The notes under the pieces: model-generated
What the model was told of the DNA's origin: nothing
The model's input: the letters and a program-made list of their open reading frames with translations, nothing else
The model's database searches: none
Shown: piece by piece, positions 6,745 through 64,000 of the stretch
How positions within the stretch are numbered: position 1 is the first letter of the stretch
How the letters are laid out: each line of letters starts with the position of its first letter
Position numbers and translations under genes: made by a program
Origin: Sulfitobacter sp. F26204
GTDB taxonomy: Bacteria > Pseudomonadota > Alphaproteobacteria > Rhodobacterales > Rhodobacteraceae
Reading direction: 5' to 3'
Assembly (NCBI RefSeq): GCF_026410305.1
Contig: NZ_JAPMLQ010000001.1
Location: forward strand, 496,001 to 560,000
Length of the DNA stretch: 64,000 nt

Positions 6745-7593
6745 TCAGGCATCCTGCCCGACCTTCTGTCGCTGTTGACCCAAACCCTGGATTCCCAGTT
6801 CCATCACATCCCCGACCTTCAGGAATACAGGCTCCGGCTTTACGCCCAATCCGACACCAGGTGGCGTGCCCGTCGCGATCACATCGCCGGGGTGCAATGT
6901 CATCAACCCGGAAAGGTGTTCGATGATTTCAGCCACCGAAAAGATCATTGTCCTGGTATTGCCGTTTTGCATCCGTTTCCCGTTCACATCGCAATACATC
7001 GACAGGTTCTGTGGGTCCGGCACCTCGTCCCGCGTGACCAGCCATGGACCTGTCGGACCAAAGGTGTCGCATGATTTGCCCTTGGTCCACTGGCCGCTTA
7101 ACCTGGATTGAAAATGCCGCTCTGACACGTCATTGACGATGCAGTAGCCTGCAACATGGTTCAAGGCCTCTTCTTTCGAGACATATTTGGCGGTTTTGCC
7201 AATGACGACTCCCAGTTCAACCTCCCAGTCGGTACGGGTCGATCCGCGTGGCATGATCACATCGTCATAGGCACCGACAATTGCGGAGTTCGCTTTGAAA
7301 AACAGTATCGGATGTTCGGGGATCGCAGCACCGGTTTCGGCGGCGTGATCGGAATAATTCAACCCGATACAGAGGAATTTTCCGATATTTCCAATGCAGG
7401 GGCCGATGCGCTGTTCACCCTCCACAACCGGCAGGCTCGCAGGGTCGATGCCGCGCAGTTTCGCAAGCGTCGCATCATCCACTGTTGCGCCTGTGATGTC
7501 TGCCACATGTGCCGAAAGATCGCGCAGAAGGCCTGCATTGTCCAACAAACCGGGTTTTTCCGCGCCTGCAGGTCCGTATCGAAGTAGTTTCAT
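6745..7593 (-). CDS. Fumarylacetoacetate hydrolase-family protein, probable 2,4-diketo-3-deoxy-sugar-acid hydrolase
   Basis: This 282-residue protein has the FAH fold with metal ligands Glu124 and Glu126 (DWEVELGVV) and Asp155 (CIVNDVSERH), and the FAH C-terminal signature DVIATGTPPGVG. Close relatives are often misnamed ureidoglycolate lyase. The genetic setting (downstream of an IlvD/Edd dehydratase and an SDR of the 2-keto-3-deoxy-fuconate dehydrogenase type) argues for cleavage of a 2,4-diketo-3-deoxy-aldonate to pyruvate plus a hydroxyacid. The ATG at 7593 has AGGA upstream and lies 11 nt after the dehydratase stop. It is the last gene of a three-gene minus-strand operon. Confidence 0.82.
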   Translation of the reverse strand: MKLLRYGPAGAEKPGLLDNAGLLRDLSAHVADITGATVDDATLAKLRGIDPASLPVVEGEQRIGPCIGNIGKFLCIGLNYSDHAAETGAAIPEHPILFFKANSAIVGAYDDVIMPRGSTRTDWEVELGVVIGKTAKYVSKEEALNHVAGYCIVNDVSERHFQSRLSGQWTKGKSCDTFGPTGPWLVTRDEVPDPQNLSMYCDVNGKRMQNGNTRTMIFSVAEIIEHLSGLMTLHPGDVIATGTPPGVGLGVKPEPVFLKVGDVMELGIQGLGQQRQKVGQDA

Positions 7594-7604
7594 GAGATCA
7601 TCCT

Positions 7605-9404
7605 TTAGTGGTTGTCACGCGGCATGAATTTGCGCGCGATGTCCTGATATTTGTCCGCCCCTTGCAGTGTCATGCCGTGATCAAGTCGCCCGACCTTCTC
7701 GCGGAATATTTCCTGCCAGGGGGATTGGCTTGCGGGGATGTCATACCCGCCATTGGCGGCTAATTTGCGCGCACGGTCATTCAACGTATCCAGCGGCACC
7801 AGCATGTTTACCGTGCCCCTGGCGAGATCGATCCGCACGGGATCGCCGTTTTGTAACAGGGCAAGCCCTCCGCCATCCGCCGCCTCGGGAGCGGCGTTCA
7901 GAATTGAAGGACTACCAGAAGTTCCAGACTGCCGCCCATCGCCGATACAGGGCAATGCCTCGATTCCCTGTTTGATTAGGTAGGAGGGTGGACGCATGTT
8001 CACCACCTCGGCGGCACCGGGATAGCCCTTGGGGCCTGCGCCGCGCATGACAAGAATACAGTTTGCGTCGATATTCTCGGCTGTATCGTCGATCCGCCGG
8101 TGAAAATCCTCAGGTCCGTCAAAAACCACAGCCCGGCCTTCGAAGGCTTCGGGGTCGTCGGGGTTGGATAAATAGGATTTGCGGAACGCCGGTGAGATTA
8201 CCGAGGTTTTCATGATCGCGCTTTCAAACAAATTGCCTGACAGGTTCAGGAATCCTGCCTGCGCTTTCATTGGATCATTCACAGACTTGATCACATCGGT
8301 ATTTTTTGACCGTTGCATCGCGCAATTGTCGAATATCGAAAATCCATTGACCGTCATCGCCTGCGGGTGCGGCAACAGACCAGCGGCAACCAATTCGCCT
8401 ATCACCGCTGGCACGCCCCCGGCCAGTTGATAGTCTTCGCCCAGATATTTGCCCGCCGGCTGCATGTTGACCAATAGTGGAATGTCGTGGCCGTGTTCCT
8501 GCCAATCGTTGTTGTCCAGGGAAACACCCAGGTGCCGTGCAATGGCGTTCAAGTGAATTGGGGCATTGGTGGATCCCCCGATGGCAGAGTTTACCACGAT
8601 GGCATTTTCAAAGGCCTCGCGGGTCATGATCTGCGTTGGCCTCATGTCTTCCCAGACCATGTCGACGATCCGCTTGCCTGTCTCATAACTGATCTGCCCG
8701 CGTTCACGGTAGGGGGCGGGAATTGCAGCGGCACCGGGCAATTGCATGCCCAGGGCTTCGGCCAGCGAATTCATCGTCGTCGCTGTGCCCATGGTATTGC
8801 AATAGCCGACCGAAGGGGCAGAGGCGGCGGCGATCTCCATGAACTCATCGGTGTCGATGTTGCCAGCGGCCAACTGCTCGCGTGCTTTCCAGATGACCGT
8901 GCCGGAACCGGCTCGTTCGCCTTTCCACCACCCGTTGAGCATCGGCCCAACTGACAAGGCGATGGCGGGAATATTCACCGTTGCCGCCGCCATCAGCAGG
9001 GCGGGGGTTGTTTTGTCACATCCGATGTTCAGAACAACACCATCGAGAGGATAACCAAACAGTGTTTCAACCAAGGATAAATAGGCAAGGTTGCGATCGA
9101 GCGACGCAGTCGGGCGTTTGCCGGTTTCCTGAATCGGATGAACCGGGATTTCGATACATGTCCCACCTGCGGCGATGATCCCGTCGCGCACGCGCTTGGT
9201 CAACTCGATGTGATGCCGGTTGCAGGGCGACAGGTCGCTGCCGGTTTGTGCAATCCCTATCATCGGTTTGCCCGATTGCAGTTCGTCGCGGGTCAGCCCG
9301 TAATTCAGGTACCGTTCAAGATAAAGCGCCGTCATTTCCAGATTGTCGGGGTTCATGAACCATTTGCGCGAGCGCAGATCGCCGATGTCGATTTTCCGTT
9401 TCAT
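7605..9404 (-). CDS. IlvD/Edd-family aldonate dehydratase (D-xylonate/L-arabinonate dehydratase type)
   Basis: This 599-residue protein removes water from a sugar acid to give a 2-keto-3-deoxy acid. The Fe-S cysteines of the family are at Cys61 (SPCNRHH), Cys129 (IGCDKTTP) and Cys202 (GYCNTMGTA). The N-terminal pattern [20 protein letters not shown] and the ending with [14 protein letters not shown] match the aldonate dehydratase subgroup typified by Caulobacter D-xylonate dehydratase better than dihydroxyacid dehydratase. The ATG at 9404 overlaps the SDR stop in an ATGA motif; a TTG 12 nt further upstream is less likely. Exact sugar specificity cannot be read. Confidence 0.88.
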
Positions 9405-11372: not shown

Positions 11373-12407
11373 TTGACAACTTCTGCCAAACGCCCCCTTA
11401 CTCTACGGGATGTCTCTGATGCTTGCGGTGTTTCTGAAATGACAGTCAGTCGGGTGCTGCGAAATCGGGGTGACGTATCAGTGGCAACGCGCAGCAAGGT
11501 GCTGGCCGCAGCCAAGGAACTTGGCTATGTGCCCAACCAGATTGCAGGTTCGCTTGCGTCACAGCGGGTCAATCTGGTGGCTGTGATTGTCCCATCCCTG
11601 AGCAACATGGTTTTCCCGGAGGTTTTGACTGGGATCAACCAGATTCTCGAAAATTCGCCACTGCAACCGGTGTTCGGCGTGACGGATTACCTGCCTGAAA
11701 AGGAAGAGCGTGTTCTATACGAAATGCTTTCGTGGCGGCCCTCCGGCGTGATTATCGCAGGGTTGGAACATTCCGAGGCAACCTGCGCCATGCTGTCGAA
11801 TTCGGGTATTCCTGTGGTTGAAATAATGGATACGGATGGCAAGCCGGTGGATGCCATGGTCGGAATTTCGCACCGCCGGGCAGGGCGCGAAATGGCGGCG
11901 GCGATCCTCAAGGAAGGGTATGAACGGATCGGCTTTATGGGCACGAAGATGCCTTTGGATCATCGCGCGCGCAAACGCTTTGAAGGGTTCACTGAGGGTT
12001 TGGCCAAGGCAGGTGTCGAGATTGAAGATCGTGCCTTTTATTCGGGTGGTTCTGCGCTTGCCAAGGGGCGCGAAATGACACAGGAAATGCTTGAGCGCTC
12101 TCCCGATCTCGATTTTCTGTATTATTCCAACGATATGATCGGTGCCGGAGGGCTGCTTTACCTTATTGATCAGGGCATCGATGTGCCGCAACAAATCGGG
12201 CTGGCCGGTTTTAACAATGTGGAATTGCTGCAAGGATTACCGCGCCAGTTGGCGACGATGGATGCCTGTCGCATCGAGATTGGGCAGGCGGCAGCCAAGA
12301 TCATTCTCAACCAGACCCTGGAAGATCCAGACCCGGATGTTCCGAACCAACTGACGTTGACCCCGAAATTGTCTTATGGGGATACACTGCGCCGTAAACG
12401 TCTTTGA
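11373..12407 (+). CDS. LacI/GntR-type transcriptional regulator
   Basis: This 344-residue protein has an N-terminal LacI helix-turn-helix (about 8-32: LTLRDVSDACGVSEMTVSRVLRN), the hinge helix (IAGSLASQR) and a periplasmic-binding-protein-like effector domain to the C-terminus. The overall pattern is closest to gluconate-type GntR repressors. Translation starts at TTG 11373 with GAGG 8 nt upstream. It lies downstream of the broken kinase and most likely controls the adjacent sugar-acid genes in response to an aldonate or keto-deoxy acid. The effector is inferred, not seen. Confidence 0.88.
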   Translation: MTTSAKRPLTLRDVSDACGVSEMTVSRVLRNRGDVSVATRSKVLAAAKELGYVPNQIAGSLASQRVNLVAVIVPSLSNMVFPEVLTGINQILENSPLQPVFGVTDYLPEKEERVLYEMLSWRPSGVIIAGLEHSEATCAMLSNSGIPVVEIMDTDGKPVDAMVGISHRRAGREMAAAILKEGYERIGFMGTKMPLDHRARKRFEGFTEGLAKAGVEIEDRAFYSGGSALAKGREMTQEMLERSPDLDFLYYSNDMIGAGGLLYLIDQGIDVPQQIGLAGFNNVELLQGLPRQLATMDACRIEIGQAAAKIILNQTLEDPDPDVPNQLTLTPKLSYGDTLRRKRL

Positions 12408-12408
12408 T

Positions 12409-13629
12409 ATGTTGACGCTGACCAACGGGCAGGCGCGCCGGGTTTTTCTGGATCGCCACAGATTGTCGGAAACCCCGCAAGGCGCGGCAACCGGTGATGA
12501 CCTGTTGGCACTGATCAGTAGCCTCGGCTTTGTTCAACTCGATAGCATCAATACTGTTGCGCGGGCGCATGATCTGATCCTGTTTTCACGGCGTCCCCGG
12601 TATCGGCCCAATGCGCTCAAGGCGCTTTATGAAAAGCACCGGCGTTTGTTTGAACATTGGACACATGATGCGGCGGTCATCCCTTTGGCGTTCTACCCGC
12701 AATGGGAATTGCGTCGTCAGCGTGATGCTGCGCACCTGCGCCGGCGCTGGAAAAAGGATAGGCGCGACGGATTTGAAAAGCAGTTCCAGATCATTCTGGA
12801 TCAGATTCGCACGGAAGGGCCGGTCTGTTCGTCGGATGTTGGTATGGGGGAAAAGCGCGGTTCGGGTGGCTGGTGGGATTGGCACCCCTCCAAGACGGCG
12901 CTGGAATACCTCTGGCGCAGCGGTGCGTTGTGTGTGGTGGGGCGAAATGGCTTTCAGAAACAATATGATCTGACTGATCGTGTATTGGATCAGGTTCTTC
13001 TTGATCCGGCAAATGTCCCTGACACCCAGACCACGATAGATTGGTGCTGTGATCAGGCGTTGTCACGGCTTGGCTTTGCGACACATGGGGAAATTGCGGC
13101 TTTCTGGGCGCATGTTTCCCCCGCTGAAGCGCGGATATGGTGCCAGCATGAACAGGCCGCTGGTCGACTGGAACAGGTCCAGATTACAGGTGCAGATGGG
13201 ATTCCGAGACCGGCCTTTGCCCGACCGGGACTGGATCAGGATGCAGCGCTTGAACTGGTGCCCACAAATCGTCTGCGTGTGCTTAGTCCGTTTGATCCTG
13301 CCCTGCGGGATCGCAAACGGGCAGAGCGCTTGTTCGGGTTCAAGTACCGCGTCGAGATGTTCGTGCCGGAACCGCAGCGCCGCTTTGGCTATTATGTCTT
13401 TCCTGTTTTGCAAGGGGACCAGCTTGTCGGGCGAGTCGATATGAAAGCGTTCAGGCAAGAAGATACCCTGCGGGTGCGCGCCCTTTGGAGCGAAGGCTCA
13501 ATCCAGTGGGGCAAGTCGCGTCAAGCAGCCTTTGAAGCAGAGCTGGAAAGGGTCAGGAAGCTGGCAGGAGTCAGTCGGATTGAGTTCGAGGATGGCTGGA
13601 TTCGTGGCTCAGCGCAGCATCATCTCTGA
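12409..13629 (+). CDS. YcaQ/AlkZ-type winged-helix DNA glycosylase family protein (HTH_42)
   Basis: This 406-residue protein belongs to the DUF1006/HTH_42 family, whose E. coli member YcaQ (AlkX) unhooks interstrand DNA crosslinks and whose actinobacterial member AlkZ protects against azinomycin. Three tandem winged-helix-like segments are expected. The catalytic-loop motif is QLD (GFVQLDSINTVARAHD, about residues 42-57), the YcaQ-like form rather than the Q-x-Q of AlkZ. Other family signatures are RPRYRPNALKALYEKHRRLFEHW and the C-terminal LSPFDPALRDRKRAERLFGFKYRVEMFVP. The ATG at 12409 is used because it begins right after the LacI stop. The gene overlaps the convergent IclR gene by 21 nt. 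Confidence 0.85.
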   Translation: MLTLTNGQARRVFLDRHRLSETPQGAATGDDLLALISSLGFVQLDSINTVARAHDLILFSRRPRYRPNALKALYEKHRRLFEHWTHDAAVIPLAFYPQWELRRQRDAAHLRRRWKKDRRDGFEKQFQIILDQIRTEGPVCSSDVGMGEKRGSGGWWDWHPSKTALEYLWRSGALCVVGRNGFQKQYDLTDRVLDQVLLDPANVPDTQTTIDWCCDQALSRLGFATHGEIAAFWAHVSPAEARIWCQHEQAAGRLEQVQITGADGIPRPAFARPGLDQDAALELVPTNRLRVLSPFDPALRDRKRAERLFGFKYRVEMFVPEPQRRFGYYVFPVLQGDQLVGRVDMKAFRQEDTLRVRALWSEGSIQWGKSRQAAFEAELERVRKLAGVSRIEFEDGWIRGSAQHHL

Positions 13630-14400
13630 CAGATCGTCAGCAGCGCGGTGCAGGCGATCCAGATTTTCCTTGAGGTAATCCAGGCTGGCCCGTTGGTGGG
13701 GGGCGTGAATGGACAAGGTAGAGGTCAACCGCCCCAAATTGTCGAGGATCGGCACCGCAATTGCGACCATCCCTTCCATGAATTCTTCATTGTCCGTGGA
13801 ATAGCCCTTGCTGCGGATCTGATCAATTTCCTGAACCAGCATATCGGGTTCGGTCAGCGTGTGCTCTGTATGGGAAACCAGAGGGGCATTGGATAGATAT
13901 TTCGCCAAATGTCTTGGTGGCAATGTCGATAGGTACATTTTGCCGCTGGCTGTGCAGTGAAATGGTACCGTCGTACCGACAGGCATCTGGATGCGCAGCG
14001 GCCATTTGGTTTCAACCCGGTCAATATAGGTCATGCCATTTCGGTCGGGTGTGGCGAGGTTGCATGTTTCACCGACATCTTCTGTCAAGGCATTCAGTAC
14101 CGTCAGTCGCAAGGTGCGCAAACGGGTTGTCGACATTACGTTGATCGAAAGCGCGCGCAACCGTTGGCCAGGGGAATAGGACCGCCCGTCGATGTCTCGC
14201 TGCAAGAATCCTTCTTCTTCCAGTCTGTGGAACAACCGGTGTACGGTGGGTTTGGGCAGGCCCAGAACCTCGTTTGCAGATGTCGGTGTGACGGGCACGC
14301 CGACCCTCGCGACTTCTTCCAGCAACAATAGCAACCGCAAGTTGGTTGGGATCGTTTTGTCCGAGGTGCTTGCGTCGGGCATGACTGGTGTCGTCCTCAT
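13609..14400 (-). CDS. IclR-family transcriptional regulator
   Basis: This 263-residue protein has an N-terminal winged helix (about 20-80: TSANEVLGLPKPTVHRLFHRLEEEGFLQRD) and an IclR effector domain (about 95-258) with typical segments MPVGTTVPFHCTASGKMYLS and GYSTDNEEFMEGMVAIAVPI. It points toward the racemase/dadA locus. IclR members commonly control neighbouring catabolic genes, so control of the divergent 14.7-24 kb cluster is a reasonable inference. The 281 bp between its start and the racemase stop hold no gene I can support. Confidence 0.88.
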   Translation of the reverse strand: MRTTPVMPDASTSDKTIPTNLRLLLLLEEVARVGVPVTPTSANEVLGLPKPTVHRLFHRLEEEGFLQRDIDGRSYSPGQRLRALSINVMSTTRLRTLRLTVLNALTEDVGETCNLATPDRNGMTYIDRVETKWPLRIQMPVGTTVPFHCTASGKMYLSTLPPRHLAKYLSNAPLVSHTEHTLTEPDMLVQEIDQIRSKGYSTDNEEFMEGMVAIAVPILDNLGRLTSTLSIHAPHQRASLDYLKENLDRLHRAADDLSEMMLR

Positions 14401-14681
14401 GTGTTAACTGCATCGCACGGCAGTTTAGGTTATCAGGTTTCCCTTGCCGGAGAGGAACCCAAATATAGCCCGCCCCGAAGAAGCAATTTGGCAAGTGCCG
14501 GACAGGCGCAAGGCCGAACCATACAATGACCAATGAGTTTAGATAGAGTGATGCGTAGCGCAACGGTCGCTAATACGGAACCCCCGTTGCTCCCGCCGGT
14601 GTCCTATCGGTTCGAGCCGCGGTGCAGGGAGGTCGCGCCGATCGGTGCATGGATTGGATGATCCCGTGCAATGGCCCGGCA

Positions 14682-15389
14682 TCAAGGGGAGGGGGCGTCA
14701 AAGGCCGCCGGTGCCAAGCCTGCCTGGAACCAACAGAGGTATGAATAGACAGAAAACACTGGCCGCCCAGTGACCCTTCCAATCTCAGCCGCATAGGGAA
14801 CCATGTTGGTACATTCCAAAATGATCGCTCCGACGTCTGGATATTCTGTGATCAGCCGGGATGCTGCCGCTGCCATCTCGATCCGTGCGGCGGCGACATC
14901 CAATGTCGTTTGGTTCCTCAGGATTGAGCGTGCGAAACTGCTGCCTTCCATACCTTGGATTGGTGTTTGGGCTGGGACCCCTGCCGCTGCCAGATGAGCG
15001 GGCGACAATGAGTCGGCGGAAATGGTTACAATGCCCAGGCGTTTATCCGGTGCCAACATTGGCAACACCTGCCCGGCCTGTTCCAATGCCGAGGCGGCAA
15101 CCGGAACGCCAAGAGCCGCAACCAACCGGGGCCTGATCAAAGCCAGAAATCCGCAGGTTGTTGCGATGCCAGTGCACCCTTGTGCGATCAATTCGCGCCC
15201 CTTGTCGACAAAGGCCTGAACAAAGGGTTCCATATCGTCGCAGACAATCGCTTGCGGTGTTGCCCCGTCGACGACGCCATAGCGTACCTGAAAGGGCCAT
15301 GTCCGGGCATTCCCGACGTCACCTGGAATACGCGGAAAGCGGGTGTCGAGCATGAGGATGCCCAGTGTTTTCTGTGTGGTATTTTTCAT
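14682..15389 (-). CDS. Aspartate/glutamate racemase-family protein
   Basis: This 235-residue protein has the two catalytic cysteines of the cofactor-independent Asp/Glu/hydantoin racemase superfamily, one in GIATTCGFLA (about residue 80) and one in IILECTNMVPYA (about residue 192), each in the conserved context. It belongs to the less-characterised branch whose substrates are mostly unknown. It is transcribed divergently from a D-amino-acid dehydrogenase/TRAP/5-oxoprolinase operon, so interconversion of amino-acid or pyroglutamate enantiomers is the likely job. The ATG at 15389 is the only good start. Confidence 0.8.
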   Translation of the reverse strand: MKNTTQKTLGILMLDTRFPRIPGDVGNARTWPFQVRYGVVDGATPQAIVCDDMEPFVQAFVDKGRELIAQGCTGIATTCGFLALIRPRLVAALGVPVAASALEQAGQVLPMLAPDKRLGIVTISADSLSPAHLAAAGVPAQTPIQGMEGSSFARSILRNQTTLDVAAARIEMAAAASRLITEYPDVGAIILECTNMVPYAAEIGRVTGRPVFSVYSYLCWFQAGLAPAAFDAPSP

Positions 15390-15560
15390 GACTGTCCCAA
15401 GCTGTGGATCTTGAAACCATGCTCAGGGATCAGGGCGTGAACAAGAAAAAAGCACACAATGACAATTTGTAAACATTTTGTTGATGTTTTGATTTTTTTT
15501 GACATGATGCCTTAGGGGAGAATCGATTTTGCGGAACAGACAGTTTTCAGGGATGGTCAG
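15390..15560. promoter_or_regulatory. Divergent promoter region, racemase / dadA-TRAP-pxp operon
   Basis: The 171-bp AT-rich gap contains overlapping near-repeats of TTTTGT/TTTTGA (15470-15492), a run of eight T (15493-15500) and a TTGACA hexamer (15499-15504) pointing toward the operon; the -10 match 17 nt later is poor. The base composition contrasts sharply with the flanking genes, as expected for a regulated promoter. Confidence 0.35.
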
Positions 15561-16799
15561 TTGACCCGTCACGTAGCGGTCATCGGGGCGGGGATCGTTG
15601 GTGTATCCGCTGGCATCTGGTTGCGCCGGGCAGGAATCGACGTCACCATTATTGACCGTGGATTGCCGGGCAGCGGTACCTCGCACGGAAATGCGGGTGT
15701 GCTGGCGGCATGTTCGATGGTACCCGTTACTGCACCCGGTTTGTTGGCAAAAGCACCCGGCATGTTGATCAATCCCGATTCTCCTTTGTTCATGCGCTGG
15801 CGCTACCTGCCCAAGCTATTGCCATGGCTGGGCAGGTATCTGGCTCATGCCAATGACGCTGATACACGTCGCATTGCGCTGGGACTCACCTCCATTGTCG
15901 GCGACTCGGTTGAGCAGCATCAAAGCCTTTGTGACGACCTGGGCTTGAGCAGTTGGATCACCCAAAGCGATTATTGTTTTGCTTACAAGGACCGCGCAGC
16001 GTTTGACGCCGAAAGCTATACTTGGGCGCTGCGCCGCGAAGCCGGTTTTGCGCCGCAACTGATTGAAGGGCAGGAGATCCGCGATTTTGAACCCGCACTC
16101 GGCCCCGATATTACTTGCATGGCGATCATGAAACACCATGGCTTTATCCGTAATCCTGGTGGCTATGTGCAGGCACTGGCCAAAGCGTTCACCGAAATGG
16201 GTGGAACGGTCCTGCAAGCCGAAGTCATGGATTTCGACCTGAGCGGCGGCACAGTGTCTGCCGTGCAAACCACGCATGGCACGGTTGCCTGTTCCGAGGT
16301 CGTGCTGGCCACAGGTGTTTGGTCAAGATCCATGATGGCAAAGCTGGGCTTGAACGTCCCACTCGAGGCAGAGCGCGGCTATCACATCGTGTTCGAGGAG
16401 GCGACAGGCGGGCCATCACGGCCGACAATGATTGCCAGTGGTAAATTTGTTGCAACCCCGATGGATCAGGGTCTGCGCTGTGCGGGTATCGTGGAATTCG
16501 GCGGGTTGAGTGCCGGTCCATCCAAGGCGCCGCTTGCCCTTTTGCGCAGACAGGCGGCACGTGCCTTTCCCAACCTCAAGGCGAAATCCGAAATTGAATG
16601 GCTGGGCCACCGGCCTGCCACCTCCGACAGCTTGCCGTTGATCGGACAGGTTGGCGAAACGGGTGTCTATACCGCCTTTGGCCATCAACACATTGGCTTG
16701 ACTGGTGGGCCAAAAACGGGCCGACTGGTGGCAGGACTGATCAATGGGGAGCAGGTCAATACCGATCTGACACCCTATCACCCACAACGCTTTTCATAA
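15561..16799 (+). CDS. FAD-dependent D-amino-acid dehydrogenase (DadA-like)
   Basis: This 412-residue DAO-superfamily flavoprotein has the FAD Rossmann motif at the extreme N-terminus (GAGIVGVSAGIWLRRAG) followed by GSGTSHGNAGVL, characteristic of DadA, and the C-terminal FAD-binding segment with GHQHIGLTGGPKTGRL. It should oxidise D-amino acids to 2-oxo acids, passing electrons to the respiratory chain. It starts at TTG 15561 with AGGGA 7 nt upstream. It is the first gene of a nine-gene operon and is divergent from the racemase, so racemisation plus D-specific oxidation could form one route. Confidence 0.85.
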   Translation: MTRHVAVIGAGIVGVSAGIWLRRAGIDVTIIDRGLPGSGTSHGNAGVLAACSMVPVTAPGLLAKAPGMLINPDSPLFMRWRYLPKLLPWLGRYLAHANDADTRRIALGLTSIVGDSVEQHQSLCDDLGLSSWITQSDYCFAYKDRAAFDAESYTWALRREAGFAPQLIEGQEIRDFEPALGPDITCMAIMKHHGFIRNPGGYVQALAKAFTEMGGTVLQAEVMDFDLSGGTVSAVQTTHGTVACSEVVLATGVWSRSMMAKLGLNVPLEAERGYHIVFEEATGGPSRPTMIASGKFVATPMDQGLRCAGIVEFGGLSAGPSKAPLALLRRQAARAFPNLKAKSEIEWLGHRPATSDSLPLIGQVGETGVYTAFGHQHIGLTGGPKTGRLVAGLINGEQVNTDLTPYHPQRFS

Positions 16800-16831
16800 A
16801 ACCACAGAAAACCAAAAAAGGGAGACGACAA

Positions 16832-17821
16832 ATGAAACTGACAACCAAACTCATGACAGGGGTGGCTACAGCGGCTGTCGCACTGGCCGGCGCTTTGCCT
16901 GTAATGGCCGCTGAGAAATGGGACATGCCAATGGCATATTCCGCCTCGAACTTTCATTCCGAAAACGGAGTTGAATTTGCAAAATGTGTTGGTGCCGGTA
17001 CCAATGGTGACATCGAAATCACCGTACATCCCGGCGGTTCACTGTTTGCAGGGGCTGACATCAAACGCGCAATTCAAACCGGACAGGTGCAGATCGGCGA
17101 GCGTCTGCTGTCGGGGCACCAGAACGAAAATGCGGTCTTTGGATTTGACAGCGTTCCGTTCCTTGCACCCTCGTTTGACGATAGTGCAAAACTGTTCAAG
17201 GCAGCCAAGCCGAAACTGGACGAAGTTCTGGCAGAGCAGAACCTGACCATGCTTTATGCCGTGCCATGGCCACCGCAAGGCTTGTACTTCAACAAAGAAG
17301 TCAACAGTGTGGCCGATATGGCCGGGACCAAGTTCCGTTCGTATAACTCAGCCACAGCGCGCTTGGCCGAATTGACCGGCATGTTGCCCGTGACGATCGA
17401 AGCGGCGGAAATCTCGCAGGCCTTTGCGACCGGGGTCGCGGAATCCATGATTTCCTCTGGCGCAACGGGCTATGATCGCAAGGTTTGGGAAAGCCTGACG
17501 CATTTCTACGAGGTAGATGCCTGGCTACCGTATAACTACGTTTTGGTGAACAATGATGTCTGGTCGGATGTTTCCGACGCAAACAAAGCGGCGATCACTA
17601 CATGTGCGAACGAGGCATCGGCGCGCGGTTTGCAGGCCTCCAAGGATTATACGCAATTTACCATGGATGGTCTGGCCGAAGGCGGCATGACCGTAGGTCC
17701 AGCAAACGACGCGTTTATGGCGGAACTGCGTGAAATCGGCGCAACGATGACGTCAGAGTGGCTTGAAGCTGCCGGTGAGGATGGCAAGGCCATCGTCGAC
17801 AGCTTTAAGGCGATGCAATAA
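16832..17821 (+). CDS. dctP: TRAP transporter substrate-binding protein (DctP family)
   Basis: This 329-residue periplasmic binding protein has a Sec signal peptide (about 1-26, cleavage after ALPVMA). The family's carboxylate-binding arginine is Arg169 in AGTKFRSYN, followed by the conserved helix and the IEAAEISQAFATGVAESMISS segment. GGGAG precedes the ATG. A stem-loop follows directly (17841-17861), as is common after dctP to raise its expression over the permease. The downstream 5-oxoprolinase genes suggest pyroglutamate or a related amino-acid derivative as ligand; Bordetella DctP6/DctP7, members of the TRAP family, are known to bind pyroglutamate. Confidence 0.9.
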   Translation: MKLTTKLMTGVATAAVALAGALPVMAAEKWDMPMAYSASNFHSENGVEFAKCVGAGTNGDIEITVHPGGSLFAGADIKRAIQTGQVQIGERLLSGHQNENAVFGFDSVPFLAPSFDDSAKLFKAAKPKLDEVLAEQNLTMLYAVPWPPQGLYFNKEVNSVADMAGTKFRSYNSATARLAELTGMLPVTIEAAEISQAFATGVAESMISSGATGYDRKVWESLTHFYEVDAWLPYNYVLVNNDVWSDVSDANKAAITTCANEASARGLQASKDYTQFTMDGLAEGGMTVGPANDAFMAELREIGATMTSEWLEAAGEDGKAIVDSFKAMQ

Positions 17822-57209: not shown

Positions 57210-58679
57210 TCAAACGCTCATGCAGATGTATTTCATCTCCAGATAATCCTCGATGCCGTGGTGCGAACCTTCACGGCCAAGACCGGATTGTTTCACACCG
57301 CCAAAGGGGGCCACTTCGGTAGAAATGATTCCGGTGTTCACGCCGACGATGCCGTATTCCAGTGCCTCGGCGACCTTGTACACGCGGCTGAGGTCCTTGG
57401 CATAGAAGTAGCTGGCCAGACCGAAAATCGTGTCATTTGCCATGGCAATCACTTCGTCTTCGTTTTCGAATTTGAACAGAGGGGCGAAGGGGCCAAAGGT
57501 TTCGTCCTGAGCGACCATCATGTCCTGTGTTACGCCGGTAACGATGGTGGGGGGCAGGAAATTGCCGTCCATCGCGCCATTGCCGCCAAGGATAACAGTG
57601 GCACCCTTGGCAACCGCATCGTCGATGTGTTCCTTGACCTTTTCACCGGCGGCGGGGTTGATCAGTGGTCCGAGGTCGACGCCTTCTTCGAGGCCGTCAC
57701 CGATTTTCAGTTGTTCGACACGAGTCTTCAACCGGGCGGCAAAGTCGTCATAAACGCTGGCTTGTACATAGATCCGGTTGGCGCAAACGCAGGTTTGGCC
57801 ATTGTTGCGGAATTTGCACAGGATGGCACCTTCGACGGCCGCATCCAGATCGGCATCATCAAAGACGATAAAGGGCGCGTTGCCACCCAGTTCCATGGAG
57901 CATTTCATCACCTGATCGGCCGCTTGCTTCAACAGGATACGCCCGACCTCTGTTGAGCCTGTGAAGGTGATCTTGCGCACAGCGGGGTTTTCGCAGAATT
58001 CTTTGCCGATGGCAGAGGACGACGACGAGGGCACCACGTTGAAGACGCCAGCAGGAATGCCGGCACGTTCCGCCAAGACGCCCATGACAATGGCGGAAAG
58101 TGGTGTTTCGGCGGCAGGGCGGGCGACAAAAGAGCAGCCGGCAGCCAGTGCTGGGGCAGCCTTGCGGGTGATCATCGCATTGGGAAAGTTCCAGGGCGTG
58201 ATCGAGGCGGCAACGCCAATGGGTTGTTTGAGCACGGTGATACGCTTGTCGCGCTGATGACCGGGGATGGTTTCGCCGTAAATACGCTTGGCCTCTTCTC
58301 CGAAAAACTCGATGAAGGACGCGCCATAGCCGATTTCGCCCTTGGCCTCAGCCAGAGGTTTGCCCTGTTCGGCGGTCAGGATGACGCCGAGATCATGCTG
58401 GTTTTCCATCATCAGATCGAACCATTTGCGCAGGACGGCGGCACGTTCCTTGCCGGTCCATTTGGCCCATTCCTTTTGCGCTGTTTCAGCCTGTGCAATG
58501 GCACCTGCAACCTGTGCGCGGCTCAGGTTTGCAACCTTGGCAATCACATCACCACGGGCGGGGTTCAATACGTCGAAGGTTCCGTCGTCGCCATCCACCC
58601 ATTTCCCACCGATGTAGGCGCGGGTTTCCAGCAGGGTTGGATCGGTCAACAGGGATTTCAGGTCGGTTTCATTGGTCAT
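57210..58679 (-). CDS. gabD: NAD(P)-dependent succinate-semialdehyde dehydrogenase
   Basis: This 489-residue aldehyde dehydrogenase has the catalytic ELGGNAPFIVFDDADLD (general base Glu) and NNGQTCVCANRIYVQ (nucleophile Cys about 287), GSTEVG of the cofactor loop and the FGPFAPLFKFENEDEVI segment. The VARPAAETPLSAI-ALAERAG arrangement matches GabD rather than betaine aldehyde dehydrogenase. The ATG at 58679 follows GGAGA; the longer frame to 58757 has no support. It would finish GABA or 4-hydroxybutyrate breakdown into succinate. Confidence 0.88.
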   Translation of the reverse strand: MTNETDLKSLLTDPTLLETRAYIGGKWVDGDDGTFDVLNPARGDVIAKVANLSRAQVAGAIAQAETAQKEWAKWTGKERAAVLRKWFDLMMENQHDLGVILTAEQGKPLAEAKGEIGYGASFIEFFGEEAKRIYGETIPGHQRDKRITVLKQPIGVAASITPWNFPNAMITRKAAPALAAGCSFVARPAAETPLSAIVMGVLAERAGIPAGVFNVVPSSSSSAIGKEFCENPAVRKITFTGSTEVGRILLKQAADQVMKCSMELGGNAPFIVFDDADLDAAVEGAILCKFRNNGQTCVCANRIYVQASVYDDFAARLKTRVEQLKIGDGLEEGVDLGPLINPAAGEKVKEHIDDAVAKGATVILGGNGAMDGNFLPPTIVTGVTQDMMVAQDETFGPFAPLFKFENEDEVIAMANDTIFGLASYFYAKDLSRVYKVAEALEYGIVGVNTGIISTEVAPFGGVKQSGLGREGSHHGIEDYLEMKYICMSV

Positions 58680-58944
58680 TGGTGTTCTCCGCTTGGTTGC
58701 GGGACTCCTTTCAATTCTGGTTCGGTTTGTCCAGTTTTTCTTGGCCCATCGGCGCATTCGGGGTTTTTGTGCCGATGCTGACCAACGGGCTGCGCAATGA
58801 CTACTGGACGCCGTGCCCTATGACGTTGAAAGTAGCGGGCATGAGCATGATGGACGTGATCAGCGCATGGAGACCTAAAAAGGAGGGGCCCTTTGGAAAT
58901 GGGGGAGGCATGACGCAGGTCAGACGCAATGTAGTGCAAAGGAA

Positions 58945-60168: not shown

Positions 60169-60275
60169 CCCCTTTTCAAGCGCATGCGGTTTTGCGACAG
60201 TTATAACAAGGAGGGATGTAAATAGTTTTTACATCCCCTATATTACGTCTAACTTATTGAAAACGGGAGTGCCGC

Positions 60276-61352
60276 ATGGCCAATTTAGACGCACAGGTCA
60301 GGGAATCGCAAAGCCAGGTCGCCGAGGCACAAAGCAAGATTGCCGAATTGACCAGCCGGATCGAGACCGCGCGTAACAAACTCAAGAGCGGCGACGATGC
60401 GATGATGGACATCGAAAACGCCACTCTGGAAGATGTTCATGCCCATACCGAAGTGATGAATGCGAATATCGCCGAGTTGATCATGGGGCTGGACGATGTC
60501 ACCGCCGGATTCAGCCGTGATTTTGACGAGATGCGGAACAAGACGGGCTGGGAGAGTTTTGTCGGGATTTTCGCCCGTGCCAAGTCGGATGCAATGCGCC
60601 AGGAACGTGTGCGCTCTGCTTCCATCGATGACAAGCTGCAGGATCTTATTTCCAAATCCGATACGATTGTGAATTTGCTCGAAGGGCAGTTGGCGATGCT
60701 GGAAGAACAGAAGGTCAAGGTCGAGGACAACCTGACCGAAACGCTGGACGAGCGGGAGATGACTGTTTCCGAACTGGAAACAATCCGAAGCGATATTCAA
60801 GGCATGGATCCGACCATCATCAAGCTGGAAAACGCGATTGCATCGGAAATGGATGCGGCCAAGCGCACCAAGCTGGAGACCGAACTGGCCGAGGCAAATA
60901 CAAAGTACAACGCGCTGGTGCAGGACGAACAGGTGAAGCTGGCGAAGTCACAGACGCTGGAGAGGTATATCGAAAAGGGCAAGACCTGGATCGATTCGCT
61001 GCAAAATCAGGCAGCGACGCAGATGGTGCTGATCAACAAGTTGCAGACGGATACCAAGCAACGTGTTGTTCTGTATGACGCTTTGACCAAGTCGCTGAAG
61101 ACCGCACAGCAGCAGGACGTGGCGCACCGGATCAACGAGATCGGCGTCAAGACGGATCAGGAGGCGCAATCGGCCATGGCCGGGATTGGTGCGGCGACCA
61201 ACGCGCGCATGGCCGAGATGATGGAGAAACACGAGGATCACATGGTCTTCGCGCGTGAGGTACTGGAGGCGAAAGCCAAGGCCGACGAGAGGTTCGCACG
61301 GCGGTTCCAGAAGATCATCGAGAAGCATGACAGCAACCAGTATGGGGCGTGA
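60276..61352 (+). CDS. Coiled-coil protein, distantly TelA-like, first gene of an AAA+ operon
   Basis: This 358-residue, nearly all-helical protein has heptad-rich segments at about 1-45, 105-165, 170-260 and a charged tail. It contains IFARAKSDAMRQERVRSASIDDKLQDLISKSDTIV followed by long helices with a TWIDSLQNQAATQMVLINKLQ motif; the order and spacing recall TelA/KlaA tellurite-resistance proteins, but the similarity is weak and read by eye. No membrane segment. ATG with GGGAG upstream. The stop overlaps the next ATG by 11 nt. Confidence 0.6.
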   Translation: MANLDAQVRESQSQVAEAQSKIAELTSRIETARNKLKSGDDAMMDIENATLEDVHAHTEVMNANIAELIMGLDDVTAGFSRDFDEMRNKTGWESFVGIFARAKSDAMRQERVRSASIDDKLQDLISKSDTIVNLLEGQLAMLEEQKVKVEDNLTETLDEREMTVSELETIRSDIQGMDPTIIKLENAIASEMDAAKRTKLETELAEANTKYNALVQDEQVKLAKSQTLERYIEKGKTWIDSLQNQAATQMVLINKLQTDTKQRVVLYDALTKSLKTAQQQDVAHRINEIGVKTDQEAQSAMAGIGAATNARMAEMMEKHEDHMVFAREVLEAKAKADERFARRFQKIIEKHDSNQYGA

Positions 61353-61542
61353 GACATTAGGAAGATCAGCTTGGCTGTTTGCCACGGCTGGCATTCTTGT
61401 TTTTCCCCTGTTGTTTGTAGATGTAATTTCCGAAGGGTTTCCGCTGCCTTTCGAGATCGTGGTTGCTGCCTTGCTTTTTACGTCTGCTTTCGTTTTCCGG
61501 GAACCGGGCCGTTCCTGGTTTAGAGGTGATCAAATTGACTGA
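61342..61542 (+). CDS. Small two-helix membrane protein
   Basis: This 66-residue protein has hydrophobic helices at about 9-25 (AWLFATAGILVFPLLFV) and 31-49 (PFEIVVAALLFTSAFVF). Function unknown. It begins inside the coiled-coil gene (11-nt overlap) and its stop overlaps the next gene by 8 nt, so it is an integral member of the operon. Confidence 0.65.
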   Translation: MGRETLGRSAWLFATAGILVFPLLFVDVISEGFPLPFEIVVAALLFTSAFVFREPGRSWFRGDQID

Positions 61543-62656
61543 CCTCGTTCACGATCATGTCGACCTTTCCGGTACCTATGGGTCGCGCCGGTATTTCCGT
61601 AAATTCGAAAACATCATGCAGTATATGTTGCATGTGGCGGGTGTGATGGAGGCCGAGGGCAAGCTGAACCCTGACGAGGTGAATATCCTTACCCGCTATG
61701 CGGCGAAGTTAAATCATACGTTCAAGGCTTTGGGCTTGAAATATCTGCTGGCTGGGCGTGAGACAGGGCGGTTCTTTGGTGCGCTGACCATGGATGTGCG
61801 CGACAGCGGTTTTCCGGTGGCCGAAGAATTGATGACCATGGCAAATGATGCCCAGCGGGCGCAGAGGCTGTTGGAGGATATGGCCCCGGTCGAGGCGTTG
61901 AAGGACCAGATGGTGCAGACCATTCTGAGCGAGCGCAAGGTGCCGACGAAGCTGCAGTTTTCTCTTTCCCAGCGGCTCTATTACGAGGAATTGGCGAAGG
62001 GTGATCTGTTTTGGGTCCAGAATGATGCGCAGTCGCAGTGGTTGGGCAACATCGCCGAAAGACGACGCCAGTTCCGACTGCATTGGGCGACTTATGACAG
62101 TCAGGTGAACTTGCCGGTGATTTACATGATGGAGGTGGAGGACAGCGGGCGCATTGGCTTGCCCAAAGACCAGCGGCGCTGGCCGGAGGTGCAGGCGCAC
62201 CTGAGTGCGCAGGCGCTGGGCGGGCTGAAGCTGTTGACCATCGCCAAGGGGTTTGACGAGGATTTCGACGATCTGCACCCCAAAAGATTGCGGCGGTTCC
62301 ATCTGGGGCCGATGTATTCGCATTCCTACACCCGTCAGGCAGGGCCGTTGCGTTCGGTTCTGGCGGAGGCCAAGGCCCCCGAAGGACAGGACTGGGCGTT
62401 GGTCTGGACCGAGGAGGAACTGGTCTCGGATCGGGTGGTTGCGCAGAAATCAGGTTGGTTTTCGACGGTGGAGCGTGAAGTTTTCGCGCTTGATCCCTTT
62501 GCGGCCAACGGGCCGGATCTGGGGGCCACGCGGCAGGAGCGGTCGATCATTCTGCCGCAGCGGGTGTTTCAGGTGCTGGATGAAAAACAACCTGCGGGGT
62601 TTGCCTCGGTACGCAAGTTTGTGGTCAGTGCCAAGGGGCGGGTGTTGCAGTATTGA
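61535..62656 (+). CDS. Operon protein of unknown function (possibly DUF6638)
   Basis: This 373-residue protein has no signal peptide or membrane helix and no motif I can name with certainty; it may match the DUF6638 family found in Rhodobacterales. It opens TDLVHDHVDLSGTYGSRRYF, followed by helices to about 110, then a mixed alpha/beta half with LFWVQNDAQSQWLGNIAERRRQFRLHWATYDSQVN. It starts at TTG 61535 with AGAGGTGAT about 7 nt upstream; other in-frame starts (GTG 61526, ORF start 61463) overlap the membrane gene more deeply. Translationally coupled upstream and followed by the AAA+ ATPase. Confidence 0.6.
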   Translation: MTDLVHDHVDLSGTYGSRRYFRKFENIMQYMLHVAGVMEAEGKLNPDEVNILTRYAAKLNHTFKALGLKYLLAGRETGRFFGALTMDVRDSGFPVAEELMTMANDAQRAQRLLEDMAPVEALKDQMVQTILSERKVPTKLQFSLSQRLYYEELAKGDLFWVQNDAQSQWLGNIAERRRQFRLHWATYDSQVNLPVIYMMEVEDSGRIGLPKDQRRWPEVQAHLSAQALGGLKLLTIAKGFDEDFDDLHPKRLRRFHLGPMYSHSYTRQAGPLRSVLAEAKAPEGQDWALVWTEEELVSDRVVAQKSGWFSTVEREVFALDPFAANGPDLGATRQERSIILPQRVFQVLDEKQPAGFASVRKFVVSAKGRVLQY

Positions 62657-62728
62657 CCTGCGGGCGCGGTCTGTGTGGTTTTGTGTCGGATTCGAGTTTA
62701 TTGGCAAGATGAAAGAGGGGGACGCGCG

Positions 62729-64000
62729 ATGAGCCGGACGTCAGATGCGATGGAACTGCGCGAAGAGGATATTGCCGGTCATGTGGGGATGGCACAGGCT
62801 TTGTTGGAGGGGTTCGACCATGCGCCGCGGATCGGCACGGGGGCCGGTGGCGAGGCGGTGGAGCGGTCTTCGGGAATCGGGACGCGGCGGCGGTTCCGGT
62901 CGACCACGCCGGGGTTGGTGACCCGGCGCCGGGTGACGCCGGGGGCGGTGTCCCTGATTGCGCGGGTCGAGGGCGCGGATGGCGATGATGCGCTGATGTC
63001 CCCCCTGCAGGCGACGGTGTTGCATGGGCTGCGCCGCGCGATTGCGATTGCCCTGGCGGTAGCTGAGAATGTTGCGGAACAATCGGGCTTGGGCGACCTG
63101 AAGCGGGCGAACCTTGAGGGATCTTTGCCTGCGGCGCGCAGGGGAGAGTTTGCCGAATTGCTGGCGGCGGAGGCCCTGGTCACGCTTTATGTCTTTGGCA
63201 ATGCGGCGGCCTATTTTATGTCGGCGCATGTGCCGGAAGTTGCTGTCGAGGTCGGTGAGGTCGAGGAGGTGTTGATCGACAACGGGCAGACCGCATTGCA
63301 TGGTGCACTATGGGAATTGGATCAGAAGATTTCGGCACATGGCGCGGATGATGCCCATGTGGTGGCGACGGTGGCAGCGTTTGCCGAATCCTTGATGGAG
63401 AAGGTTGCGCTGCGTGCGCAGACCGCATCGCGGTTGGAGGGGTTCAAGGCGGCAAGCTGGCGCGTGGAGGCGGATGATTTCACCGTTTCGGGGTTTTCGC
63501 CTGCGTCCAAGGCGAAATCGACCACGCTGACGATGACGTTCAAAAAACCCAACGAGGTTGTCGGCAACCATATTGCCAAATATCAGGCGATGAAGTTGGC
63601 GAAGATGCTGATGGCCTATGACTTTGACCGGCGGCTCAACCCTTTTGCGGAGTTGGGCGGATTCATCTTTACCTTCATGGGGGATGGCGCGCCGGGGACG
63701 GGCAAAACTACGCTGATTCAGATGATGGCGGGGTTGATTTCCGAATACTGCAATAACGCGGGCTATCCGTTTCGCTATCAGAACCTGAGCACGGATAATA
63801 TCGACAGCTATCAGGGCAAATCGGGGCAGAACGCGAAGGCGTTTATCAATAATATCATTGATCCTGGCGTCATTGGTTTTGGCACGATTGACGACATCGA
63901 CCAGTTGGCGGGCAAGCGCGGCGACAGGCAATCCTCTGCCGGACAGTTGGAGATTACCGCCGTGCTGATGGAGAGTTTTGCGGGGGCCAATACCGTTGTG
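62729..64000 (+). CDS. AAA+ ATPase (3' end outside the window)
   Basis: At least 424 residues, in frame to the last base. The N-terminal half (1-270) is a helical domain of unknown type with Arg-rich RRRFRSTTPGLVTRRRVT. The AAA core follows: Walker A GAPGTGKT (320-327), YQNLSTDNIDSYQGKSGQNAK, and Walker-B-like GVIGFGTIDDID (380-391), where the usual hhhhDE reads TIDDID. The sequence after TFMGDG resembles FtsH/Vps4-class AAA modules. ATG at 62729 is preceded by GAAAGAGGGG at short distance. It is the fourth gene of the coiled-coil operon. Confidence 0.8.
   Translation, partial: MSRTSDAMELREEDIAGHVGMAQALLEGFDHAPRIGTGAGGEAVERSSGIGTRRRFRSTTPGLVTRRRVTPGAVSLIARVEGADGDDALMSPLQATVLHGLRRAIAIALAVAENVAEQSGLGDLKRANLEGSLPAARRGEFAELLAAEALVTLYVFGNAAAYFMSAHVPEVAVEVGEVEEVLIDNGQTALHGALWELDQKISAHGADDAHVVATVAAFAESLMEKVALRAQTASRLEGFKAASWRVEADDFTVSGFSPASKAKSTTLTMTFKKPNEVVGNHIAKYQAMKLAKMLMAYDFDRRLNPFAELGGFIFTFMGDGAPGTGKTTLIQMMAGLISEYCNNAGYPFRYQNLSTDNIDSYQGKSGQNAKAFINNIIDPGVIGFGTIDDIDQLAGKRGDRQSSAGQLEITAVLMESFAGANTVV

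Follow-up and report, generated by a model that had tools for sequence, protein, structure and literature searches.

Do the genes that close a 64,000-nucleotide (nt) stretch of the Sulfitobacter sp. F26204 genome (contig NZ_JAPMLQ010000001.1, positions 496,001 to 560,000; hereafter the window, meaning the whole stretch analysed) encode a dedicated machine and, if so, which genes belong to it? An earlier note on the window described four tightly coupled genes, which we designate A, B, C and D, and proposed that they specify a membrane-associated stress or remodelling complex driven by the AAA+ ATPase encoded by D. The unit is dedicated, conserved and undescribed, as that note held, and its member genes differ from those proposed: the conserved unit is a set of four proteins, A, C, D and F, the last encoded beyond the window, present or absent as a whole in our sample. 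The interval between D and F (slot 2) is an exchangeable position, whose cargo is swapped between close relatives around the conserved core. We tentatively interpret the locus as an AAA+ platform, so far undescribed, whose effectors can be exchanged and which is probably related to defence or stress; we consider this more likely than a housekeeping machine whose operon serves as a docking site.

A, C, D and F form an all-or-none unit

The four open reading frames (ORFs) reported in the window were confirmed on the + strand, with D cut by the window end. Gene A (60276-61352) encodes a coiled-coil-like protein of 358 amino acids (aa) and overlaps by 11 nt the gene for the 66-aa protein B (61342-61542), which in turn overlaps by 8 nt gene C (61535-62656; 373 aa). 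The TTG start of C matches the position where aligned homologues begin, with a GTG at 61526 as a possible alternative. Gene D starts with an ATG at 62729, 72 nt after C; the three stop-start overlaps first described are really two overlaps and one gap. D encodes 645 aa, of which 424 codons lie within the window (62729-64000), and ends at window-equivalent position 64666. Contrary to what had been supposed, the unit does not stop at the AAA+ gene: the operon continues with genes E, F, H and G; F (window-equivalent 65414-66754) encodes a DUF6638 protein of 446 aa.

We examined 196 genomes of the order, all from the family of the window, Rhodobacteraceae. A, C, D and F were each matched in 113 of them, representing 52 of 87 genera, and the tables for the four proteins, compared by eye, contained the same genomes. 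One of the 113 (G123) retains mere fragments with stops of all four genes, and in another (G137) D is split across two contigs. Within the genus of the window, eight of 13 sampled genomes contain the set and five do not. In all five, which were read individually, G and an aldehyde-dehydrogenase-like gene that flanks the locus in the window (57210-58757, - strand; named from reading the ORF and not from a family search) are still in place and the four core genes are missing.

For gene order, we fetched 60 regions from at least 57 genomes, the window locus and 80 named loci out of at least 556 confirmed relatives. Leaving out one degraded locus (L089), 140 loci were analysed; removal of six duplicates left 134 distinct loci, 122 of them with complete D and F. 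The order A-C-D-F was unbroken in every one of the 130 Rhodobacteraceae loci fetched that have both D and F, with gaps of 5-1291 nt between A and C, 14-2709 nt between D and F and 271-433 nt between F and G; C and D were separated by 11-626 nt, except for one gap of 958 nt and one genome at 5587 nt. All 18 D-bearing loci read from other families, two of them on Vibrio megaplasmids, kept the same order. Internal stops were absent from all 60 fetched copies of the core genes that were translated (the degraded G123 copy was left out), and the apparent in-frame stops in F were alignment run-through. The idea of a dedicated multicomponent unit with an AAA+ motor survives for A, C and D, with F added from beyond the window; B drops out, since it has a homologue (E ≤ 1e-3) in one of the 140 fetched loci, the window's own, and occupies a variable slot.

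Slot 2 exchanges its cargo between close relatives

Cargo ORFs in slot 2 were called when they had at least 55 aa and either a codon score above 0 or a GC content below 0.52 together with a length above 450 nt. They were considered AT-rich when their GC content was more than 6 points below that of their locus, and were clustered by blastp (E ≤ 1e-4 over half of the shorter protein). Called cargo occurred in 98 of the 122 distinct loci, for a total of 133 ORFs. AT-rich cargo comprised 52 ORFs in 18 clusters, exactly one in each of 52 loci, and native-GC cargo comprised 81 ORFs in 22 clusters. Transmembrane (TM) segments were predicted in 78 of the 81 native-GC proteins as compared with 31 of the 52 AT-rich ones. 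Core genes were never more than 6.8 GC points below their locus. None of 52 flanking control genes was AT-rich; these controls had been picked with a codon-usage filter favouring native genes, so this figure is not independent evidence and was not used.

AT-rich cargo is coupled to F. Among the 43 AT-rich genes that are alone in the slot, 33 end in an ATGA whose stop overlaps the start codon of F, and 4-nt overlaps were found at none of 139 A/C and none of 132 C/D junctions. In loci without cargo, D and F are separated by -4 to 890 nt (28-139 nt in most), indicating that the cargo/F overlap does not merely preserve the ancestral junction.

Cargo turnover is fast. Of 33 locus pairs sharing at least 93% identity in D, 26 differed in cargo label; many of the 33 come from one Tateyamaria group and are not independent. 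Ten of the 26 carried two different AT-rich families (six of the ten within one Tateyamaria group), and none of the 33 shared an AT-rich family. For instance, the Tateyamaria loci L127 and L120 show 92-96% DNA identity in the core and 47% in the cargo genes, which are unrelated, and L128 and L129 combine 91-94% core identity with different cargo.

The slot-2 gene of the window genome, E (window-equivalent 64663-65268; 201 aa), overlaps D by 4 nt and belongs to an AT-rich cluster spanning eight loci. Its profile matched seven of the 196 genomes, five of them in slot 2, and included one frame-broken gene in a genome lacking the system. Pfam matches among the 52 AT-rich proteins included putAbiC (4), DUF2971 (2), DUF4145 (2), DUF3825 (1), DUF5677 (1), HATPase (1) and HEPN_RiboL-PSP (1), besides weaker ones; PADLOC matches were to AbiP (4), PDC-S31 (2, the same two proteins that match DUF2971), PDC-S14 (1), DrmA (1), CARF-HEPN (1) and Csx1/Csm6 (1). 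A search for homologues of four cargo types on plasmids found none.

Members of one cargo cluster (CL1; L033, L050, L096, L111 and others) have in common an N-terminal two-TM segment, PPNEIGDTLAG..LAF.WIIVTV.LQS.EL, followed by C-terminal parts that differ and that match putAbiC in some, and the cargo itself thus looks modular. Outside Rhodobacteraceae, the slot-2 ORFs of at least 80 aa (L214, L248, L251 and L255) were all short and endonuclease-like, by annotation in L214 and by eye in the others.

Core proteins

D is an AAA ATPase of family PF00004 (43.4 bits against a cut-off of 21.2; E = 5.6e-11). By eye, we recognised a Walker A motif (GDGxPGTGKT), YQG at the position of pore loop 1, IDDID at Walker B, with DD in place of the usual DE, and RQRA.R near the position of the arginine finger; GDGxPGTGK, YQG, IDDID and ALRQRA, with roles likewise assigned by eye, were invariant or almost so in 11 diverse D sequences. 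A C-terminal stretch, NRYADSEFR, is very conserved and is mostly retained even in Vibrio. Among solved structures, D had a weak match to an i-AAA protease (E = 0.0009), and no MIT-type domain was reported in its Pfam scan.

No Pfam or NCBIfam family above cut-off was found for A, B or C, and no solved relative was significant by sequence for A, C or F. Intact copies of A in the 196-genome sample are 71-96% identical to the A of the window, with an almost invariant C-terminal half, and identity per column reached 83% over 21 sequences. A had been described as weakly TelA-like, a relation that found no support: TelA (PF05816) was not among its Pfam matches at E ≤ 1, and alignment with the genuine TelA of the genus gave an hhalign probability of 0.6% (E = 0.09), both profiles being shallow. 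PspA/Snf7 families were likewise not matched by A in Pfam at E ≤ 1.

The lack of a recognised domain in C, as first reported, holds for both family databases. An AlphaFold2 model of C (predicted local distance difference test, pLDDT, 87.5) has a helical N-terminal half and a beta-rich C-terminal half, the latter giving weak T-fold-like VIA rows (uricase, DHNA, PTPS, QueF-like and GCH I; Z 3.5-4.9, root-mean-square deviation mostly 2.8-4.5 Å). Foldseek retrieved no PDB match for C at E ≤ 0.001 (best E = 0.13), and its best BFVD match had E = 0.0024 with a TM-score of about 0.1. F belongs to DUF6638 (PF20343; 756 bits against a cut-off of 27), and G to DUF1523 (PF07509; 227 bits against 23), both families of unknown function; a literature search returned no paper naming DUF6638. 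The model of F, from the S. noctilucae copy, had a pLDDT of 81.3, weak VIA matches (one row at Z 6.2 over 57 residues) and no PDB match by Foldseek at E ≤ 0.001. C and F were considered as mutual homologues and rejected (hhalign probability 0.9%).

Among PADLOC models, D matched TRIP13 (E = 1.3e-5), in line with a general AAA likeness, the best match of A was at 0.0023, others were weaker, and C, F and G had none at E ≤ 1. PHROGs gave weak AAA-type matches for D, together with matches for G (1.2e-6) and E (3e-4).

Slot 1, downstream genes and the membrane

The interval between A and C (slot 1) appears to take diverse, fast-diverging small membrane proteins, the predicted two-TM protein B in the case of the window. 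Counting ORFs of at least 50 aa by simple hydropathy and with no control set, a TM-predicted ORF was found in this gap in 76 of 133 distinct loci, and one with two or more TM segments in 56. In L070, slot 1 contains a ParE-family toxin gene beside a ribbon-helix-helix antitoxin-like gene (7361-7908).

Downstream of F in the window genome lie H (window-equivalent 66751-67017), which overlaps F by 4 nt and encodes an 88-aa two-TM protein of no Pfam family, and G (window-equivalent 67023-67661), the DUF1523 gene, beyond the window. Of the 126 system loci fetched for this comparison, 124 contain H, as do seven of 12 DUF1523 regions from genomes without the system. DUF1523 itself is present in 189 of the 196 genomes, and we therefore rejected it as a private component; H, too, adjoins DUF1523 in system-less genomes. 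The gene after F is DUF2333 in the Sinorhizobium, Shinella and f160 loci (by Pfam in L214 and by eye in the rest).

In genome G074, DUF1523 occurs twice, once linked to the system and once elsewhere, there too on the same side of an aldehyde dehydrogenase (C2 3442500-3461500, L181; L049), which suggests that the system and its own G can be mobile as one unit.

Of the proposed membrane-associated remodelling complex, the membrane connection is plausible, given the TM-predicted ORFs of slot 1, the three-TM cargo and the H-G/DUF1523 or DUF2333 neighbours, and remodelling found no direct support.

A proposed effector platform and its housekeeping rival

If the locus is an effector platform, the A-C-D-F machine would stand upstream of resident membrane-protein genes, H-G/DUF1523 or DUF2333, and slot 2 would receive small three-TM proteins, a single AT-rich gene of apparently horizontal origin that is read within the operon, or both. 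D, as a ring-forming AAA+ ATPase, presumably hexameric and able to remodel substrates, would act on A, C and F as a sensor or actuator at the membrane. The slot-2 protein would be an exchangeable effector under the control of D, most likely aimed at phages or other invading elements in a manner resembling abortive infection. Put in its most specific form, the locus could be a modular immune or invasion-response machine, with an AAA+/coiled-coil/C/DUF6638 core anchored to resident membrane proteins and rearmed by swapping a single translation-coupled effector gene, a proposal that we make with some additional reserve.

Several observations weigh against the platform, some of them pointing to a machine with housekeeping or stress functions in the envelope or in proteostasis, which would work with H-G or DUF2333 and whose steadily expressed operon would be a tolerated docking site for unrelated accessory or defence genes; we regard this as a serious, if lesser, possibility. 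The core is kept in 24 of 122 loci without called cargo, six of which have gaps above 250 nt, and a slot ORF of at least 80 aa was found in only four of 18 loci from other families, being absent from the other 14, indicating that retention of the core does not depend on cargo. In addition, the core is highly conserved, it adjoins membrane genes as widespread as DUF1523, and its flanks look, by eye, like ordinary genes and not like a defence island. Nevertheless, the set is missing in 83 of the 196 genomes and in five of the 13 from the genus, which is unusual for a housekeeping function; moreover, the stop of lone AT-rich cargo is in most cases precisely coupled to the start of F, and occupied slots hold a single AT-rich gene rather than a multigene island. 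Returning to the effector platform, further points count against it. The cargo counts cover ORFs on the operon strand only. On the D side, 4-nt overlaps occur in 24 of the 43 lone AT-rich genes, 19 of the 24 being GTGA and hinging on the choice of start. Cargo labels changed 79 times on the D tree as compared with a mean of 87.1 after shuffling (range 79-92), so some cargo inheritance remains and turnover is not fully random. The core proteins match no known defence protein beyond the general AAA likeness of D to TRIP13, and most cargo has no known family. Lastly, matches to PADLOC model members summed to 16 for the 52 cargo proteins and also to 16 for the 52 flanking controls, whose matches were mostly to generic ATPase and regulator models; enrichment was consequently dropped as an argument, and defence is argued from the identity of the families present and not from how many matches there are.

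Two other explanations seem to us improbable to different degrees. A system of the ESCRT-III/Vps4 kind, which makes the remodelling idea of the earlier note specific, would have A form filaments on the membrane and D disassemble them. It agrees with the predicted coiled-coil-like nature of A and its nearly invariant C-terminal half, with the PF00004 type of D and its YQG at the pore-loop position, and with the many linked TM proteins. However, A has no profile match to PspA/Snf7 or TelA and no solved relative, D has no reported MIT-type domain, and C, F and the cargo slots would be left unexplained, making this explanation unlikely. Less probable still is that the slot is a landing place for toxin-antitoxin-like addiction genes that stabilise the operon, with swapping as selfish turnover: the ParDE-like pair in slot 1 of L070 and the HEPN-like cargo would fit, but that pair is the single clear one seen, most AT-rich cargo (43 of 52) has no partner in the slot, and 31 of the 52 have predicted TM segments.

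Comparison with known systems

Lamassu, CBASS and Zorya are modular anti-phage systems that combine a conserved core with variable effectors. The locus resembles them in its conserved core with an ATPase, its patchy presence and the exchangeable partner genes within the operon. Unlike them, its core matches their PADLOC models only by general AAA or coiled-coil similarity, and many of its loci have no cargo. BREX loci have accessory defence genes, such as BrxU, nested within them, and here too foreign defence-type genes lie inside a conserved multigene locus with an ATPase; in contrast to BREX, no PglX/PglZ/BrxC-type gene was found in the A-F operon with Pfam, NCBIfam or PADLOC, and the insertion is of one apparently co-translated gene at one fixed junction. 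ESCRT-III/Vps4 and PspA are membrane-remodelling systems, with which the locus shares a coiled-coil-like protein and a PF00004 AAA ATPase; it differs in the absence of a profile match for A and in having two further core proteins and cargo slots. The TelA/XpaC tellurite-stress locus likewise pairs a long helical soluble protein with membrane proteins, but the sequence relation of TelA to A is unsupported and the 12 kb read at the TelA locus contain, by eye, no AAA+ gene. A true TelA is encoded on another contig of the same genome (G000:C20 376000-388000, L207), with neighbours that by eye are TerC-, XpaC- and SPFH-like.

Should the AAA+ core prove to control the slot protein as its effector, more than half of the genomes sampled from a major marine family would carry an undescribed platform. 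The slot would then offer a natural inventory of effectors, with 18 AT-rich clusters among 122 loci, mostly of no known family. Pairs of strains whose cores are nearly identical and whose cargo differs make the role of the cargo directly testable. Even as a housekeeping system, the locus would stand out as a conserved AAA+ machine, two of whose partner families, A and C, are nameless in Pfam and NCBIfam and a third of which is DUF6638.

A candidate operator upstream of A

An imperfect palindrome, GATGTAAAT..TTTACATC, followed by CCTATAT, lies on the + strand at 60215-60243, 32 nt ahead of A, and is a candidate operator/promoter. A strict pattern of the palindrome and CCTATAT was found about 32-35 nt ahead of A in 34 of the 134 distinct loci, and in none of 50 mononucleotide shuffles of the regions upstream of A (mean 0.0, maximum 0). 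It did not occur upstream of C (0/133), D (0/126), F (0/122) or G (0/82). Rfam gave no matches across 19 kb.

Distribution beyond the family and atypical loci

A class-wide search with D retrieved five of 289 genomes, one of them outside the family (G416), with A, C, D, F and a DUF1523-like G tightly packed. In a phylum-wide search, D was found in 26 of 398 genomes (14 from the family of the window, ten from family f160, one from f165 and one from another class). A search of plasmid proteins with A yielded 11 records (Sinorhizobium 4, Vibrio 4, Rhizobium 2 and Shinella 1). A phage origin of the set was considered and rejected, as D was absent from 50,697 phage records and A was not found in viral contigs.

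The two Vibrio loci, on a 925-kb plasmid of V. vulnificus and an 882-kb plasmid of V. parahaemolyticus (L215 and L216), contain A-C-D-F without cargo, and the gene directly after F is annotated mfd in both. In R. leguminosarum pSK03 (L217:11794-14148), a lone distant relative of A, without C, D or F, lies beside DUF2333, at a site that shares its neighbours with the Sinorhizobium site. In Roseovarius nubinhibens ISM (L130, around 12206-17605), the operon is split by a 5.6-kb insertion between C and D, containing three long + strand ORFs (219, 492 and 1144 aa) that by eye resemble an imuA-imuB-dnaE2 SOS mutagenesis cassette.

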